In this document: in pieces, positions 24,053-31,592 of the stretch
Layout: each line of letters opens with the position of its first letter
How positions within the stretch are numbered: position 1 is the first letter of the stretch
Assembly: GCF_015523185.1 (NCBI RefSeq)
Contig: NZ_WAKV01000014.1
Span: 1-43,385, forward strand
Direction of reading: 5' to 3'
Length of the DNA stretch: 43,385 nucleotides
DNA from: Thermococcus sp.
Lineage (GTDB): Archaea; Methanobacteriota_B; Thermococci; Thermococcales; Thermococcaceae
The notes under the pieces: generated by a model
The model's input: only the letters and a program-made list of their open reading frames with translations
The model's database searches: none
Told to the model about the DNA's origin: nothing
Program-made: the position numbers and the translations under genes

Positions 24053-25408
24053 ATGGAGCTGTTTTATAGGATAAGCTTTCAGGAGGTAGTTGCGGACGCT
24101 TTAAGCTTAGTTGAGGAGCGTGAGCTCTCTTCCAAGCACGCCCTTGAGAGGGTCTTTAAGAAGGTGGCAGGAAGGGACCGTGAGAAGGCGAGAGGTTTGG
24201 CCCACGCTTACGTCTTCGAGATTGAGAAATGGCGCGCTAAAATAGACTTCATAATCAACTCGGTTTTGAAGGGCTCAACGGTTGAGGATTTGAACCCCTA
24301 TTTGGCGAACCTCCTCCGTATAGGGACGTTTGAGATACACTTCCGGAAGGTTCCGCCGGCGGTGGCGACCGACTCAATAATCCGCGTCGTCAAGGAGCGC
24401 TTTGACTTCAGCAGGGCAAAATTCGTAAACGCTCTGATGCACTCGATAGAGAAGTTCGACGTGGAGAAAGCGTTGAAGAGGCTGAAAGAGAAGGACAGAA
24501 TCGCGTGGTTGAGCGTTCGCTTCTCCCACCCGCGCTGGTACGTGGAATATGTTGTAGATTTGCTCGGCTACGACGAGGCTGTCCGTTTGCTCCTCAGCAA
24601 CAACAGGCCTCAGCGCTACTACGTCAGGGCCAACACGCTGAAGACGGACGTTGATTCTCTTAGAGATTACCTTGAGGAGAACGGTGTGAGGACCGCAAGA
24701 ACGCCCGTCCCAGACGTGCTAAAGGTTCTTGAATACAAAACGCCGGTCACGAGGCTCGACTGGTACAACCAGGGGAAGTTTGTGATTCAGGATTTGGCGA
24801 GCGCCTACGTCGCTCATGTCCTAAACCCGGAGCCGGGCGAGAGGGTTCTTGACCTGGCCGCCGCTCCGGGAAGCAAGACCTTCCATGCTGCATCGCTGAT
24901 GGAGAATAAAGGAGAAATCGTCGCGGTTGACTACTCCTACGACAGGCTCATGAGGATGAAGGAGAAGATGAAGCTCCTGGGGATTAAAAACGTCAGGCTC
25001 GTTCACGCGGACGGCCAAAGCTTTAGGGACAAGGCCAAATTCGACAGGATAATCCTCGATGCGCCGTGTTCAAGCTCAGGAACCTATAGGCAGTTTCCTG
25101 AGGTAAAGTGGCGCTTTGATGAAAAGAAGATTAAGCGCATTATAAGTGTCCAAAGGAACATGCTCCGTAACGCCTACGAGAACCTTCGAGACGGCGGTGT
25201 GATGACCTACTCAACCTGCTCGATTAGAGTTGATGAAGATGAAGAAAACGTGCTCTTCGCCGTTGAAAGGGTCGGGCTGGAGCTAATAAAGGAGAGTTTC
25301 AGCTGGGGGGATAGGGGATTCATGGAGGTTGGGGATAAGGTTTTCAGGGCATGGACCCACAGGCACGACTGCAACAGCTTCTTCATAGCAAAATTAAAGA
25401 AAAGATAA
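24053..25408 (+). CDS. RsmB/NSUN-type RNA (cytosine-5) methyltransferase
   Basis: A 451-residue protein with a NusB-like helical N-terminal domain (residues 1-135) and a Rossmann methyltransferase domain. SAM-binding motif I is VLDLAAAPGSKTFHAA near 265-280; motif IV is ILDAPCSSSGTYRQFPEVKW near 337; motif VI has the catalytic cysteine in TYSTCSIRVDEDEENV near 388. It makes 5-methylcytosine in tRNA or rRNA; the target cannot be decided by eye. The start has a GAAGGGCCGAGC leader and a TATA-like TTTTTAAA upstream. It is divergent from the polymerase gene. Confidence 0.9.
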   Translation: MELFYRISFQEVVADALSLVEERELSSKHALERVFKKVAGRDREKARGLAHAYVFEIEKWRAKIDFIINSVLKGSTVEDLNPYLANLLRIGTFEIHFRKVPPAVATDSIIRVVKERFDFSRAKFVNALMHSIEKFDVEKALKRLKEKDRIAWLSVRFSHPRWYVEYVVDLLGYDEAVRLLLSNNRPQRYYVRANTLKTDVDSLRDYLEENGVRTARTPVPDVLKVLEYKTPVTRLDWYNQGKFVIQDLASAYVAHVLNPEPGERVLDLAAAPGSKTFHAASLMENKGEIVAVDYSYDRLMRMKEKMKLLGIKNVRLVHADGQSFRDKAKFDRIILDAPCSSSGTYRQFPEVKWRFDEKKIKRIISVQRNMLRNAYENLRDGGVMTYSTCSIRVDEDEENVLFAVERVGLELIKESFSWGDRGFMEVGDKVFRAWTHRHDCNSFFIAKLKKR

Positions 25409-25419
25409 GAAAAGATATT

Positions 25420-28400
25420 CTAATGCTCTCCTATTGCTTCTCTGAGTATTTTCACAGCTTCTTTTTCAAGGAGATATGCTTTTCTGATTTCCCAGAACTT
25501 TGGAACTGGTAATGGAGTTCCTCTCCATAGTTTTTGTCTTATAGTGTTTAAATCATTGCTTCTCCATGCGTCCTCTATTAATTCTGTAGCATTGTTATGA
25601 AGCTCTAATGCTTTTTGAAGAGATTTATTGTTAATATTAAGCATGGTAGCATTCTGATAGAGAGCGTTGAACTCATCATAGTATTTGAAGAACCAGTTTG
25701 TCCAAACATATGACAACGTTATTATATTAGTATACAAGTTTTCTCCTTTCGACACCAATGTAGGTATGCTACCAATGACAATTACACTAAGGTCGAATCC
25801 ATTAACTGAAAATGGTAGTATAATACTCCCTCTTTCAAATGGCATTTGTCTCCATTTCCTGTTATCAAAGTCATATTGGAATACTTTAATTTGGTTAATG
25901 TCTGAGACATTGTTAATTTCGAGCTTAAAGTGGCCAAAGCCTGTTGACGTTATCACGAACGCTCTTAAGTTTTTAACTTCTGGAACATTTCCGATTATTT
26001 GTTTCAGAGTATCTTTTGAAATTTCATAAACTTCAATGTTATCAACATTAACGTCAGTTGAATATAGCCCAATATCATCAGGTGCTTCTAGTAATCTTGG
26101 CCTTACTGTTATCTCAATTGGAATCGTTAGTACTGAGTTAGTTCCTTGAATCAAGATTTTTCCTTTATAAGTTCCAGTTCTTGTGTTGAATGGAATCTTC
26201 AGAGCAACGTGAACTGGAACACTTTCATTGGGTGTCAGTGATATCACATGTGGATATGAAGTGTAGTTAATTGCGATTGAATCTTTTCCATCGGAGAGAC
26301 TTGTTACTCCGATCCTTGCTATGTCTTGAATAGCAGAGTTTATTGTGAAGTCCAAGTTTATAATCTTTCCACTTACTGTACTGAAGTTGAATCCTATAGC
26401 TGAGGCTTTGAACTTTGTTGATATGGGCTCATTTAAAACATAAACAGAGAATGTCGTCTGCCTCATAAATGGAACTCCATTAACTTCACCGCTCGCTTTT
26501 AGAGTTATTGTATAGCTCCCAGCTTCTTTTGGAATGTAGTATGTATAGTAAATTCCGTTCTTGTTGTTATCAAGTTCTAGATAGTCTATATTTCCATCCG
26601 GTTTAACTATGGTTGCGTTAATATTTCCCTTTACTGGATCACCATTTCTGGTTAAAACTCCAATGAGTTTTATTGGTTCACCAAGTTTGTATGTATTCTT
26701 TTCGGTAAATAGATCAACTGTTAAGTTGGTATCTGCAAGTACCATTGCTGTAACATTTTCTCCATTCTCAGAGACATCAACTGCGGTAATGTTCATCTTC
26801 CACTCTCCAGGGAGTGGATTCTTGACTTCATATATAGCGTAAGTATCACCCTTGGTGTATGTAAGGTTTGAATTGCTTTGGGCTATTTCTGGAGTTATTA
26901 CACTTCCATTGGGAGTTATTAGAGTTAGGTTAAATTTACTGCCAGACCAAGCTATAGAAAATTCTGCTGTTCTTACTGTGGGATCTACTAACACAGACCG
27001 GGTCGTACTTTCACCAGGTTTTAGTTCAATAGATTCGGAACCAAGTGTATTCCTATTCGTGATCATACCCTTTATGGAGTTATATATCTTTAAAAGAACT
27101 TCTGCTTTTCTTGCTTCGTAGTATTTTCCTCCAGTTATATCGGCTATTTTCATTAACAGATCAGAATTCAAAAATGGTCTGTTTTCAAGAGTATACCAAC
27201 CGCTTGTCAGTCCAATAGTGTAAACTTTCCATCCTTTGTCCCTAAACCACTTTGCTACTGTTATTGGATTGTATGGATCTCCCCAGTTATCATCGCCATC
27301 AGTTAAGAGCATTACATATTTTGGATAATTATCTTGAGCATTCGAAAGAATGTCATAAGCAGCTTTTAAGCCAACGCCGATATACGTGCCTCCTGATGCA
27401 TCTATTGTATCGATGAATGATTTAAGTCTATTTCTATCTTCTGCGCTTGAAATGTATAAGAGCCGGCCATCTGGCGGATAATATCTCACATTTCGGTCAA
27501 AATCAACAACAGCAACACCGTCACCTTTGTCCATCGAATCTACAAGCATTTTGGCGGCCTTTAGTCTTAAATCATTGTCATCACTTCCTTTCCAGTATCC
27601 ATCATAGGAGTGCATGCTCCCAGAGCTGTCTATTACTAGAACAACATCTATGTTGTCTGATAAGCTGTATATTATTGTATCTTTCTCAGTAATTTCTAAG
27701 CCATTGGAAAGCTCAATTGTTAAGTCATATTTTCCTTCGTTGTTCACGGGTGGAGTATAAACCTTATAAATAGAGTATCCGTTGGAGTCAGTTCCAAGGT
27801 ACTCAAATTTTGAGGTTAGTCTATGGTCAATCCATATTTTTTTCAGTAACTTACTTGCATCTATGTACGGGACTCCAGTAGAAAGTTTTATGTAAAAAGG
27901 CCGTGGATTATCGAAGGAACCCACATAAGCTGGTTTTTTAGAGCTAGGGCTTATTAGGACAGGTTTTATTACAATAAATATTGCTGAAGCATTATCCTTT
28001 CCATATTCAGGATTTTCCGCAGTAATGTGAACCTGATAAATTCCAGGTGAGAAAGAATTTGGTATTGTGAATGTTCCTTGGTAAATTCCTTCTGTTATCC
28101 TTTTCATGTTGTACACTTGGGATGAACCTTCTACATGGAATTTTACTATAGCATCAATGGGGTTACCTTTAGGTCCAACCACTTTGATATCAAACGTGAC
28201 AGTATCACCTGGGAGATATTTGGAAACATTATTTCCAAAGGATATCTCGGATATAGATATTTGAGGAGACCAAAACTTACTTCTAACTAACGACCAAAAT
28301 TCATTCCAAGATCTAGATTGCTTATTTCCTTCATATGAAAGGGCCCAAAAACCTACTCCTGCTAGTCTTTCTGAGATAATATAGTCAAATTTGATTCCTA

Positions 28401-29421
28401 ATGATTCCATGTCTTCATACCAAACTTGATACCATCTACACACAATTTTCCCATTGTCTGTTTTATAGTAATATTTACAATTTGTAGTATTATTGGAAGG
28501 ATATTCATACCAAGGAGTTTTGGATTTAGGATCCCACTTTTTACCATATTTAGAAGCTTCTAACAAAGCTTTGTACATCTTAATACTACTCCCATTACTA
28601 GGAACTCTCTCTGCATATGGCATTGGTGAAAAAGCTTCCCATTTATATCCATAAAGAGGTACTCCAAGTATTATTTTGTTCTTTGGGTAATACTCCTCTA
28701 GCCTCTCTACTGCTCTTGTTACTTTATCATATGGTGCTACTGGTCCTGTGTAGTGTGCATATTCCTTTTTTGGATCTTGATCATATTGACTAACATGAAA
28801 ATCATAGGCCATCAAAAATACTCCATCTATATATTGGGCAATGTTTTTGTTTCTATACATTTCTTCAATCCACCCAGAGACGCAAATAAACACTTGATAT
28901 TTAGGATGTAGCTTGAAATATAATTTCTTCAATAATTGTTCCATAAGGTATTTATTGTTTAAGAAGGGGTATACACTGTTCCATTCATGTCCATTTTCAA
29001 AATCTAGAATAACTCCATCTGCTTGGTAATGTTTGATAATATTATAAACATTTTCTACAAAGTTATCAGCATGAGTGGCCAGTATTTCATCTTGGATTTG
29101 AGGATTAAACGCAGTAATAGTTATTATGACCTTAATGTTGTGTTTTTGAGCTTCATTATGTATTTCCCAATATTTATAATTCAGTTGTGAAATATTCAAA
29201 TCTCCATTAGGTATGGCAGGTACACTGAAATATGCAATGTGTGTTAAGCTATTCCATTGGGGAGAATATAAGGAGTTAGCCCAACTAGGCCAAAATCCAA
29301 ATACTATTTTTGTTTTGGTATTATCAACTTTTGTAGTTGTTGAAGTTGCTCCGGATATTGGTATAGGTCTTAAGCTGACCAAAAACATAACTACTAATAA
29401 AAGACCAAATACTTTTTTCAT
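25420..29421 (-). CDS. Secreted GH18-like glycosidase fused to von Willebrand A and Ig-like domains
   Basis: A 1333-residue exported protein. A signal peptide occupies residues 1-24 (MKKVFGLLLVVMFLVSL). Residues 38-380 are a GH18 barrel with FGFWPSW, the catalytic helix motif D135-G-V-I-L-D140-F-E142, MAYDFHV and a closing VGFWALSYEG. Ig-like segments follow to about 590, then a VWA domain with a complete metal site: D598, S600, S602, T679, D708. More Ig-like segments and a helical C-terminus with no membrane anchor end it. The middle aspartate of DxxDxDxE is isoleucine; the acid E142 remains. Many N-x-S/T sequons suit an extracellular protein. The DNA is AT-rich (hand-counted lines 30-37% GC against 62% in a neighbour), suggesting transfer. 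Confidence 0.88.
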   Translation of the reverse strand: MKKVFGLLLVVMFLVSLRPIPISGATSTTTKVDNTKTKIVFGFWPSWANSLYSPQWNSLTHIAYFSVPAIPNGDLNISQLNYKYWEIHNEAQKHNIKVIITITAFNPQIQDEILATHADNFVENVYNIIKHYQADGVILDFENGHEWNSVYPFLNNKYLMEQLLKKLYFKLHPKYQVFICVSGWIEEMYRNKNIAQYIDGVFLMAYDFHVSQYDQDPKKEYAHYTGPVAPYDKVTRAVERLEEYYPKNKIILGVPLYGYKWEAFSPMPYAERVPSNGSSIKMYKALLEASKYGKKWDPKSKTPWYEYPSNNTTNCKYYYKTDNGKIVCRWYQVWYEDMESLGIKFDYIISERLAGVGFWALSYEGNKQSRSWNEFWSLVRSKFWSPQISISEISFGNNVSKYLPGDTVTFDIKVVGPKGNPIDAIVKFHVEGSSQVYNMKRITEGIYQGTFTIPNSFSPGIYQVHITAENPEYGKDNASAIFIVIKPVLISPSSKKPAYVGSFDNPRPFYIKLSTGVPYIDASKLLKKIWIDHRLTSKFEYLGTDSNGYSIYKVYTPPVNNEGKYDLTIELSNGLEITEKDTIIYSLSDNIDVVLVIDSSGSMHSYDGYWKGSDDNDLRLKAAKMLVDSMDKGDGVAVVDFDRNVRYYPPDGRLLYISSAEDRNRLKSFIDTIDASGGTYIGVGLKAAYDILSNAQDNYPKYVMLLTDGDDNWGDPYNPITVAKWFRDKGWKVYTIGLTSGWYTLENRPFLNSDLLMKIADITGGKYYEARKAEVLLKIYNSIKGMITNRNTLGSESIELKPGESTTRSVLVDPTVRTAEFSIAWSGSKFNLTLITPNGSVITPEIAQSNSNLTYTKGDTYAIYEVKNPLPGEWKMNITAVDVSENGENVTAMVLADTNLTVDLFTEKNTYKLGEPIKLIGVLTRNGDPVKGNINATIVKPDGNIDYLELDNNKNGIYYTYYIPKEAGSYTITLKASGEVNGVPFMRQTTFSVYVLNEPISTKFKASAIGFNFSTVSGKIINLDFTINSAIQDIARIGVTSLSDGKDSIAINYTSYPHVISLTPNESVPVHVALKIPFNTRTGTYKGKILIQGTNSVLTIPIEITVRPRLLEAPDDIGLYSTDVNVDNIEVYEISKDTLKQIIGNVPEVKNLRAFVITSTGFGHFKLEINNVSDINQIKVFQYDFDNRKWRQMPFERGSIILPFSVNGFDLSVIVIGSIPTLVSKGENLYTNIITLSYVWTNWFFKYYDEFNALYQNATMLNINNKSLQKALELHNNATELIEDAWRSNDLNTIRQKLWRGTPLPVPKFWEIRKAYLLEKEAVKILREAIGEH

Positions 29422-29626: not shown

Positions 29627-30016
29627 GTGTTTTTAGCAGTCTGGCTCGCGAGAAAGGAAACGACGAACAAAGCCAGAAAGGCCCTTGCTTTGACCGGTCT
29701 AATAGCCATCCTTTCCTTGGCTCTGGCACCCATCAACGTCCCCTTCGCCGTTAACACATTCGTTACCTTTACCGCAGGCGCATTGGCTCTAATTTACAGG
29801 GATGAACTTCTAAAGGGAATGCCCGCCTTCATGTACGGCTGGATCGGTGCGGGCATCGGATTCATACTGGCCATAATTGTTGTTCCTAGAGTGGTTACAG
29901 GGGACGTTGAAAGGGTTCTCGCGTTGGTGGGGCTTATGATCGTTTCAATGGTTGTTTTTCTGGCTCTCGGACGGAAGCTTCACTACAGACCCTTCAACAG
30001 ATACCCCAGTTATTAG
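29627..30016 (+). pseudogene. Membrane protein, probably 5'-truncated at the island edge
   Basis: A 129-residue frame with four or five hydrophobic helices (KALALTGLIAILSLALAPINV, FAVNTFVTFTAGALALIY, WIGAGIGFILAIIVVP, VLALVGLMIVSMVVFLAL). The first available start is GTG 29627, a few codons after an in-frame TAG and without a ribosome binding site or a well-placed TATA box. The hydrophobic start FLAVWLARKETTNKA looks like the end of a first helix. With the sharp composition change at this point, loss of the gene's 5' end to the AT-rich segment is likely. A short functional version remains possible. The family is unknown to me. Confidence 0.5.
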
Positions 30017-30273: not shown

Positions 30274-30438
30274 ATGGAGAGCGTGGCACCTAACTTTGAG
30301 GAAGTCTTTGCGCTGGCTAACCTTCTCAGGACACGTTACCTTCCCGAAAAAAAGGGAAAGGGACGAAAGAAATTAAAAGGCTCCTGGAGGGAGCTTCGTG
30401 AATACATCGAAGAGTACAGGGACGTTTCTGGACAGTAG
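30274..30438 (+). CDS. VapB-type antitoxin (pair 2), short
   Basis: A 54-residue frame too short for routine gene calling. It reads MESVAPNFEEVFALANLLRT, then a strongly basic run (EKKGKGRKKLKGS) and an acidic helical end (WRELREYIEEYRDVSGQ). It directly precedes and overlaps the PIN toxin gene by 41 bases, the layout of VapBC operons. It is shorter than the antitoxin of pair 1 and lacks the N-terminal strand of that protein, so its DNA-binding part may be reduced. The start is supported by the TATA element 26 bases upstream. Confidence 0.6.
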   Translation: MESVAPNFEEVFALANLLRTRYLPEKKGKGRKKLKGSWRELREYIEEYRDVSGQ

Positions 30439-30886
30439 CGTCATGGTCAATACCATAGTCGAGACTGAGCTTACCAAGTTTACCGACAGAGTCTTTGAGA
30501 GATTTCCACTTATAACGTCTGAAACCGTTATAGACGAAAGTGTTTACGTAATAATCCGCAAGCTGTTCGCCGAAAGGGCAATCAAAAATCGATTCGATGT
30601 CAAAAGAAAACTTCAAACCCCTATGGGTGAGGAGATTATTGAGGAGGCCATAACACTCGTTATGAATCTCATCGAGGAGAAAAACGTGGCAATAGTTAGG
30701 GATGCGGACATATACCTAACGCTAGCAACTATGAAGAAATATCTGCTCCTTCCTCACGATGCTAAAATAATATCCACGATGCTTCAAAACGGCATCAGGG
30801 AGCTAACAACCTTCGACGAGGATTATAGAGTCGTCCCGGGTATTGTTCTGCTTCCGGAAGACTACTGGAGAACAGAGAAAGATTAG
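30398..30886 (+). CDS. VapC-type PIN-domain toxin (pair 2)
   Basis: A 162-residue PIN-domain protein, a probable RNase. D12 in TFLDSSVMVN, the acidic pair in TVIDESVYVI, D in LLPHDAKIIS and D in TTFDEDYR form the expected metal site. GTG 30398 is preceded by GGAGG at ideal spacing, inside the antitoxin gene. It is clearly related to the toxin at 9643-10089: the segments around DESVYVIIRKL and YLLLPHDAKI match NEAIYVSFRKL and YSLLPNDATI. The stop overlaps the convergent AMMECR1 gene by four bases. Confidence 0.85.
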   Translation: MNTSKSTGTFLDSSVMVNTIVETELTKFTDRVFERFPLITSETVIDESVYVIIRKLFAERAIKNRFDVKRKLQTPMGEEIIEEAITLVMNLIEEKNVAIVRDADIYLTLATMKKYLLLPHDAKIISTMLQNGIRELTTFDEDYRVVPGIVLLPEDYWRTEKD

Positions 30887-31500
30887 ACCAGAGGCTTCCT
30901 CCTCACGGGGCCCCTTGGATACTCCTCCTCAAATATCTCAGCCGTGAACCGGTAGACTTTAGTATCAGGGTCAAGCCAGCAGTCGGGTGGAAGGCCGGCC
31001 TTCCAGCAGGTCTGCGATAAAAACTCCTCTTCGTCCCAGCCCCACTCGACCGGCACCTGCGGGAGCAGTAGGCCGGAGTATATGCCCTTCTCAATGAGCA
31101 GACCGTCTCTGCCGACCTTTATTTTCTTGGGCCTCTCCTCTGGCGGACCTTCCACGAGTTCTGGAGGCGTTAAAACGCTGACCTCAACGACGATATCGTC
31201 CAACTCGCTCTCCCTAACCGGCGGAAAACGCGGGTCGTCAACGGCCGCGTAGATTGCCGCCTTTATAGTGGTCTCAACCAAGGGGTAAATCGGGAGAGGA
31301 AAGCCTATGCAACCCCTCAGGGCCATCTGCGGGGGGACGTTGTGCCTGTTGAGGGTCACAAAAACGCCCATCTTCTCCCATAGCTCCGGAGGAGTGTCCT
31401 CGGGTGGCTTTATTACTCTTCCGTGCCTCACGTACTCCTCAACGGCTTTTCTCGCGAGCCTGACGAGGAACTCGCCCCACTCGTCCTTTATTCGGTACAT
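30883..31500 (-). CDS. AMMECR1-domain protein
   Basis: A 205-residue member of the AMMECR1 (TIGR00296-type) family. The invariant LRGCIGF motif is at about residue 61, followed by PLVETTIKAAIYAAVDDPRFPPVRESELDDIVVEVSVLTPPE and the C-terminal QVPVEWGWDEEEFLSQTCWKAGLPPDCW. Structures from Pyrococcus are known; the biochemical role is not, though the family is often fused to or near MEMO-type proteins and radical SAM enzymes. ATG 31500 is chosen because GGTGAGGAAA precedes it. Confidence 0.92.
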   Translation of the reverse strand: MYRIKDEWGEFLVRLARKAVEEYVRHGRVIKPPEDTPPELWEKMGVFVTLNRHNVPPQMALRGCIGFPLPIYPLVETTIKAAIYAAVDDPRFPPVRESELDDIVVEVSVLTPPELVEGPPEERPKKIKVGRDGLLIEKGIYSGLLLPQVPVEWGWDEEEFLSQTCWKAGLPPDCWLDPDTKVYRFTAEIFEEEYPRGPVRRKPLV

Positions 31501-31592
31501 TTTCCTCACCCCTTAAAATTACCTCACGTTAGTTTATTAACCTATCGCAACCCTTAAATTACTGCCGATAGAGATTAAAGCGGGTGTCGAAG

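Follow-up and report, generated by a model that had tools for sequence, protein, structure and literature searches.

A secreted GH18-VWA protein of Thermococcus with a family-wide C-terminal four-helix module, encoded as an AT-rich insertion at a variable site

Introduction

VARTIG is a variable locus specific to the Thermococcales that encodes a large secreted Ig-domain protein and for which recombination has been inferred (Makarova et al. 2021, PMC8416519). In all these respects it resembles the site described here, and among the variable modules described from thermococci it comes nearest. However, VARTIG has a constant N-terminal part, a variable C-terminal Ig part and a DNNxxxGG end, whereas the present system has variable heads and a constant tail without the DNNxxxGG motif. 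The genomic contexts of the two also differ.

Archaeal peptidoglycan hydrolases that kill bacteria have been described, and the enzymes tested came from a haloarchaeon (PMC12352652). Like the gene studied here, these hydrolases are patchily distributed and shuffled, and are thought to move by horizontal gene transfer. The survey, however, required a cell-wall-binding domain, and its text mentions neither GH18 nor Thermococci.

Among characterized glycosidases, the spore cortex-lytic SleL/YaaH/YdhD type shares with the present protein the GH18 fold and a D-F-E motif with a noncanonical -4 position, and it belongs to the top tier of its PDB matches. The present protein differs from this type in being archaeal, in lacking LysM and in being fused to VWA/Ig domains and a tail. 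Canonical GH18 chitinases of the Thermococcales belong to the same enzyme family and come from the same archaeal order, but they have a DGVDIDWEYP-type motif, show about 25% identity, differ in architecture and lie on a distant branch of the tree. The order of a VWA domain followed by a GBD/beta-sandwich domain is known from CLCA and hemicentin; the present protein differs from them in being archaeal and in having a GH18 head and a thermococcal tail.

In this study, we analysed positions 1-43,385 (forward strand) of contig NZ_WAKV01000014.1 of Thermococcus sp. (GCF_015523185.1), hereafter called the window. An earlier note, made from the sequence alone, had proposed that the window encodes a secreted GH18 glycosidase fused to a VWA domain.

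Results

The 1333-residue chain described in the earlier note is encoded on the minus strand at 25420-29421, and its reading frame is open from end to end. A hydrophobic N-terminal segment, about residues 1-25 (29347-29421), is the predicted signal peptide. It is followed by the GH18 barrel at residues 40-363 (28333-29304; Pfam E=8.1e-26), so that the proposal of a secreted GH18 protein was borne out. The PF00704 score of 91.9 bits is above the curated cut-off of 29.6. Ig-like modules occupy about residues 402-581 (27679-28218), as judged from an MG2-like Ig match at residues 402-471 and from strands in the model. The VWA domain is at residues 592-779 (27085-27648; Pfam match 592-778, E=1.6e-14). 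It is followed by beta-sandwich/Ig modules (25780-27084), which include a GBD_Hemicentin match at residues 800-880, a Filamin-type Ig match at residues 925-985 and a further region to about residue 1214; sequence search of the PDB gave CLCA-like and filamin matches here. Thus, Pfam places Ig-like modules on both sides of the VWA domain, as had been claimed. The chain ends in a four-helix tail at residues about 1227-1332 (25426-25743), recognized by a tail profile and an AlphaFold model. All of these features are on the minus strand.

The GH18 barrel has the motif DGVILDFE at residues 135-142, in which D140 and the catalytic E142 (DxE) are present, and the MAYD motif at residues 204-207 is intact. 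The canonical chitinase motif DxxDxDxE is incomplete in that its second Asp is replaced by Ile. In an AlphaFold model covering residues 35-800, pLDDT of the GH18 part was mostly about 90, and the best PDB fold matches of the barrel were GH18 enzymes, namely ChiW, SleL, YdhD and others. Since the modelled barrel retrieves GH18 structures, the earlier assignment of residues 38-380 to a GH18 fold stands. ChiW (5gzu) was the top PDB match for both the model and the GH18 subfamily profile, its profile score being the sum over two domains, and SleL and YdhD were near the top. SleL, YaaH and YdhD were all found among the sequence and fold matches of the head. A Pfam scan of the protein found neither LysM nor any known peptidoglycan-binding domain.

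The fusion is rare. The window GH18 detected relatives in 9 of 115 genomes of the phylum and VWA was found in 26, but only the window's own genome encodes both in one frame. An alignment of the GH18 subfamily, used against about 85,000 species genomes, yielded nine relatives, from Thermococcus, Thermoplasmata, DHVE2, ANME-1, Methanosarcinaceae and Dehalococcoidia; the scan worked from two short conserved patterns, and the gene runs off the end of some contigs, so that fusions could have escaped it. The members of this subfamily, including Thermococcus GH18-LTD proteins, are 31-46% identical to the window GH18. They differ from it in occurring singly, in tandem, or fused to amidases, a C25 peptidase or LTD, and no VWA was found in the subfamily chains scanned with Pfam. 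No paper on the GH18-VWA combination was found in the open-licence literature. These results support the earlier statement that no described archaeal system is known to have this architecture, and the architecture looks unique among the sequences compared.

Close relatives have the motif ADGxx[ILV]DF[E], with Ile, Ser, Cys, Val, Leu or Asn in place of the second Asp of DxxDxDxE. The catalytic Glu is retained in them, save in the first domain of tandem DHVE2 proteins (L173 5791-8070; L174), which has DFP instead. In a GH18 tree, the window GH18 is apart from the thermococcal DGVDIDWE chitinases, which form a long branch of their own. The SleL and LysM-GH18 proteins of bacteria are on the window's side of the tree, the support for this split being weak (0.51). 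The noncanonical motif and the tree position led us to reject the identification as a canonical chitinase. A viral origin was rejected as well, as no viral contig encodes a relative of this GH18, and so was a role as an anti-phage defence gene, as there was no PADLOC match.

Amidase_2 and Amidase_3 are families of N-acetylmuramoyl-L-alanine amidases. A Thermoplasmata MAG encodes a relative, 39% identical, in which GH18 lies between the two in the order Amidase_2-CARDB-GH18-Amidase_3 (1865 aa; L170 3751-9348); the fusion is known from one MAG contig. This protein is itself a candidate archaeal multi-enzyme peptidoglycan hydrolase. A more distant GH18 relative in Persicobacter (L224 1102-3404) is encoded directly upstream of a DUF4255 gene, and a link to a contractile injection system is possible there.

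The MIDAS of the VWA domain is complete (DxSxS...T...D). Its five residues, D598, S600, S602, T679 and D708, are exactly where the earlier note had placed them. The VWA part of the AlphaFold model is of low confidence, only two sequences having covered the domain; the VWA assignment therefore rests on HMMs and on a PDB sequence match (4rck, 4.8e-13).

The gene differs in composition from its surroundings. Its GC content is 0.354, compared with 0.517 in the remainder of the window, and its codon-usage distance is 0.40 against 0.11-0.21 for eight neighbours. In a close relative (G045, L127), the RsmB-type protein is 96% identical but the GH18-VWA gene is missing. Similarity to this genome stops at 25408, the stop of the RsmB-type gene, and restarts at about 29626. 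Between the matching points G045 has about 200 bp, in which a membrane gene begins with its first ~42 codons. That gene is intact there (171 aa; L127 590-1105) and adjoins the RsmB-type gene, whereas the window copy (29627-30016, plus strand) lacks these codons. Thus, a cassette extending from 25409 to about 29626, which comprises the GH18-VWA gene and the region upstream of it, took the place of about 200 bp, and the membrane gene lost its start. Insertion also accords with the low GC and the foreign codon usage, and the enzyme gene is in all likelihood a recent acquisition. The AT-rich island of the earlier note is real in composition but consists essentially of one gene and its upstream region.

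The insertion is at a variable site. On the left, the site is bordered by the conserved gene for an RsmB/F-type rRNA methyltransferase (24053-25408, plus strand), and AMMECR1 (30883-31509, minus strand) is its conserved right edge. A PIN-domain gene (30398-30886, plus strand) is a recurrent cargo. These assignments come from Pfam and from comparison of relatives. In some relatives the site is empty. Others have tail-bearing cargo, namely a tail protein of 354-368 aa (also in another genus), a PKD-tail protein of 1410 aa or a VWA-tail protein of 1526 aa, and others again have cargo of an unrelated kind, for example PIN, a membrane ORF or a gene pair with an ABC ATPase. The last is an ABC-type ATPase with a partner of 690-828 aa that has no Pfam match (L135 5703-8870; L129 5693-8460; L136, L151, L153). 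In G083, a tail protein of 371 aa adjoins polB. PolB frames are 1469-1739 aa long in some relatives (L032 1-5117; L162 759-5978; L161 9833-14242) against 783 aa in the window, and these lengths suggest that the site-adjacent polB carries inteins in these relatives.

One relative (G035) encodes at the same site a protein that is 73% identical to the window protein from residue 402 to near the end but has an unrelated head. The Ig modules between GH18 and VWA are 72-73% identical, and the signal peptides are 71% identical over residues 1-21 (blastp). The G035 head comprises about 550 aa (L032 9434-11090) and is largely helical-looking. It has no relative in the 115 genomes and no convincing Pfam match beyond an N-terminal Ig-like segment. 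The earlier note had stressed the joining of the VWA domain to a glycosidase. The two are indeed in one chain, but the VWA-Ig-tail body carries another head in this second genome. In a tail tree, the tails of the window, G035 and G033 proteins cluster with other tails of the site (0.82), and a second group of site tails is elsewhere in the tree; support is moderate because the domain is short. This clustering speaks for heads having been replaced over a single tail lineage.

The last about 105 residues were modelled by AlphaFold as a four-helix bundle (mean pLDDT 92), in keeping with the helical end noticed earlier. This end proved to be a shared C-terminal module of a whole family. A profile search found it in 80 of the 115 genomes, all of one family (f1), and in none of the phylum's other families. 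The module closes 74 distinct proteins of 136-4498 aa, with 1-9 residues between its end and the C-terminus. An N-terminal signal-like segment is present in 65 of the 68 that have a start codon. The window protein has the same layout, beginning with a signal peptide and having a profile match that comes within 10 aa of the C-terminus. Partner domains include S8 subtilases (pyrolysin-type), PKD, NosD beta-helices, Y_Y_Y, CARDB, beta-propeller and VWA; a papain-like match is weak. Many genomes also encode standalone proteins of 136-149 aa that consist of a signal peptide and the tail. The window's genome has three tail proteins: the GH18-VWA protein, an S8 protease and a standalone tail of 136 aa (L187 3198-3608), the last being a possible tail partner.

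No relative of the tail was found in Pfam or NCBIfam, nor one of useful significance in the PDB by sequence or fold. The last 40 aa contain no CGP, the mark of the CGP-CTERM sorting signal. A transmembrane C-terminal anchor was rejected because a further strongly hydrophobic segment is present in just two tail proteins. The D[ND]NxxxG[GD] motif was found in 0 of the 74; this, together with the opposite polarity, led us to reject membership of VARTIG.

Discussion

The GH18 head probably cuts GlcNAc-containing glycans. Bacterial peptidoglycan would be its likeliest substrate, given its noncanonical motif, its tree position nearer to SleL/LysM-type GH18s and the relative between two amidases. The last of these, the Thermoplasmata protein, is the strongest clue. 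The matches to SleL, YaaH and YdhD and the Persicobacter relative beside the DUF4255 gene point the same way. Against peptidoglycan stand the first place of ChiW in the match lists, the negative Pfam result for peptidoglycan-binding domains, the weak support of the tree split and the single MAG contig behind the amidase fusion. The earlier note had suggested a surface enzyme acting on S-layer glycans, polysaccharide or a competitor's envelope. S-layer glycans received no direct support, and the comparative evidence puts bacterial peptidoglycan first with other GlcNAc polymers possible. We would rank chitin second and N-glycans third.

Our reading of the whole, offered tentatively and at somewhat below an even chance, is that of a secreted surface protein with exchangeable heads. 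In this protein, the GH18 head of a noncanonical subfamily would cut bacterial peptidoglycan at its GlcNAc bonds, which could serve attack or feeding. The VWA/Ig body would be a stalk, and a divalent metal might allow it to bind its target, either a protein or a polymer. The four-helix module may be a docking tag that keeps this protein and other secreted enzymes attached by non-covalent contacts, either to the envelope of the producing cell or within a complex. The gene arrived as a single-gene cassette at the variable site beside the RsmB-type gene, where heads seem to be exchanged and the tail retained. The domains, the catalytic and MIDAS residues, the position and distribution of the tail, the different heads on a common body and tail, the variability of the site and the junction of the insertion are observations, whereas the substrate, the binding by the VWA domain and the docking role of the tail are inferences.

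Other roles of the head have to be weighed against this. A nutritional enzyme might hydrolyse environmental chitin or exopolysaccharide while the VWA/Ig body grips the polymer. The best fold and profile match of the head is ChiW, a cell-surface chitinase, and Thermococcales reportedly grow on chitin (PMC8416519); but the motif is noncanonical, the head is apart from the thermococcal chitinases and Pfam finds no chitin-binding domain in the protein, so we regard this role as unlikely. The GH18 family also includes endo-N-acetylglucosaminidases, and the signal peptide and Ig modules suggest a surface setting. The head might thus trim S-layer N-glycans of the producer or of a competitor archaeon, with the VWA domain holding the S-layer protein. 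That no endo-GlcNAcase is among the best listed sequence or PDB matches of the head, and that the gene is lacking in almost every relative, where a housekeeping envelope enzyme would be expected, makes such envelope remodelling quite improbable. Slightly less probable still is an adhesin or decoy whose GH18 fold now only binds sugar. Catalysis has evidently been lost within the subfamily, as the DHVE2 relatives indicate, but Asp140, Glu142 and the MAYD motif are all intact in the window protein.

A docking tag at the C-terminus would be the simplest reading of the tail, although its distribution would also fit a role in stability or secretion or a removable C-terminal propeptide. A stability cap or cleaved propeptide of thermococcal secreted proteins would be compatible with any substrate. 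It accords with the tail closing pyrolysin-type S8 proteases, which are noted for long C-terminal extensions (PMC12838322). However, the tail also closes proteins other than proteases, and it occurs by itself after a signal peptide, as would be unusual for a propeptide; we consider this explanation rather doubtful, if a serious one. Bolder than our preferred reading, and improbable to a somewhat greater degree than the cap or propeptide, is the claim that the tail, as a hitherto undescribed surface-docking module of archaea, serves to display secreted enzymes throughout the family, and that the RsmB-adjacent site is a head-exchange locus which supplies the surface with changing effectors, among them a peptidoglycan-cutting GH18 aimed at bacteria.

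Little is known about how archaea that lack sortase motifs and membrane anchors retain giant secreted enzymes at the cell surface. A C-terminal module common to pyrolysin-type proteases, adhesin-like proteins and a GH18 protein is a concrete and testable candidate for such surface retention. The combination of a constant body and tail with differing heads resembles the arrangement of polymorphic effectors, with a polarity opposite to that of VARTIG. If the proposed activity is true, the range of archaeal antibacterial enzymes would widen to the Thermococci through a hyperthermophilic GH18 that acts on peptidoglycan.
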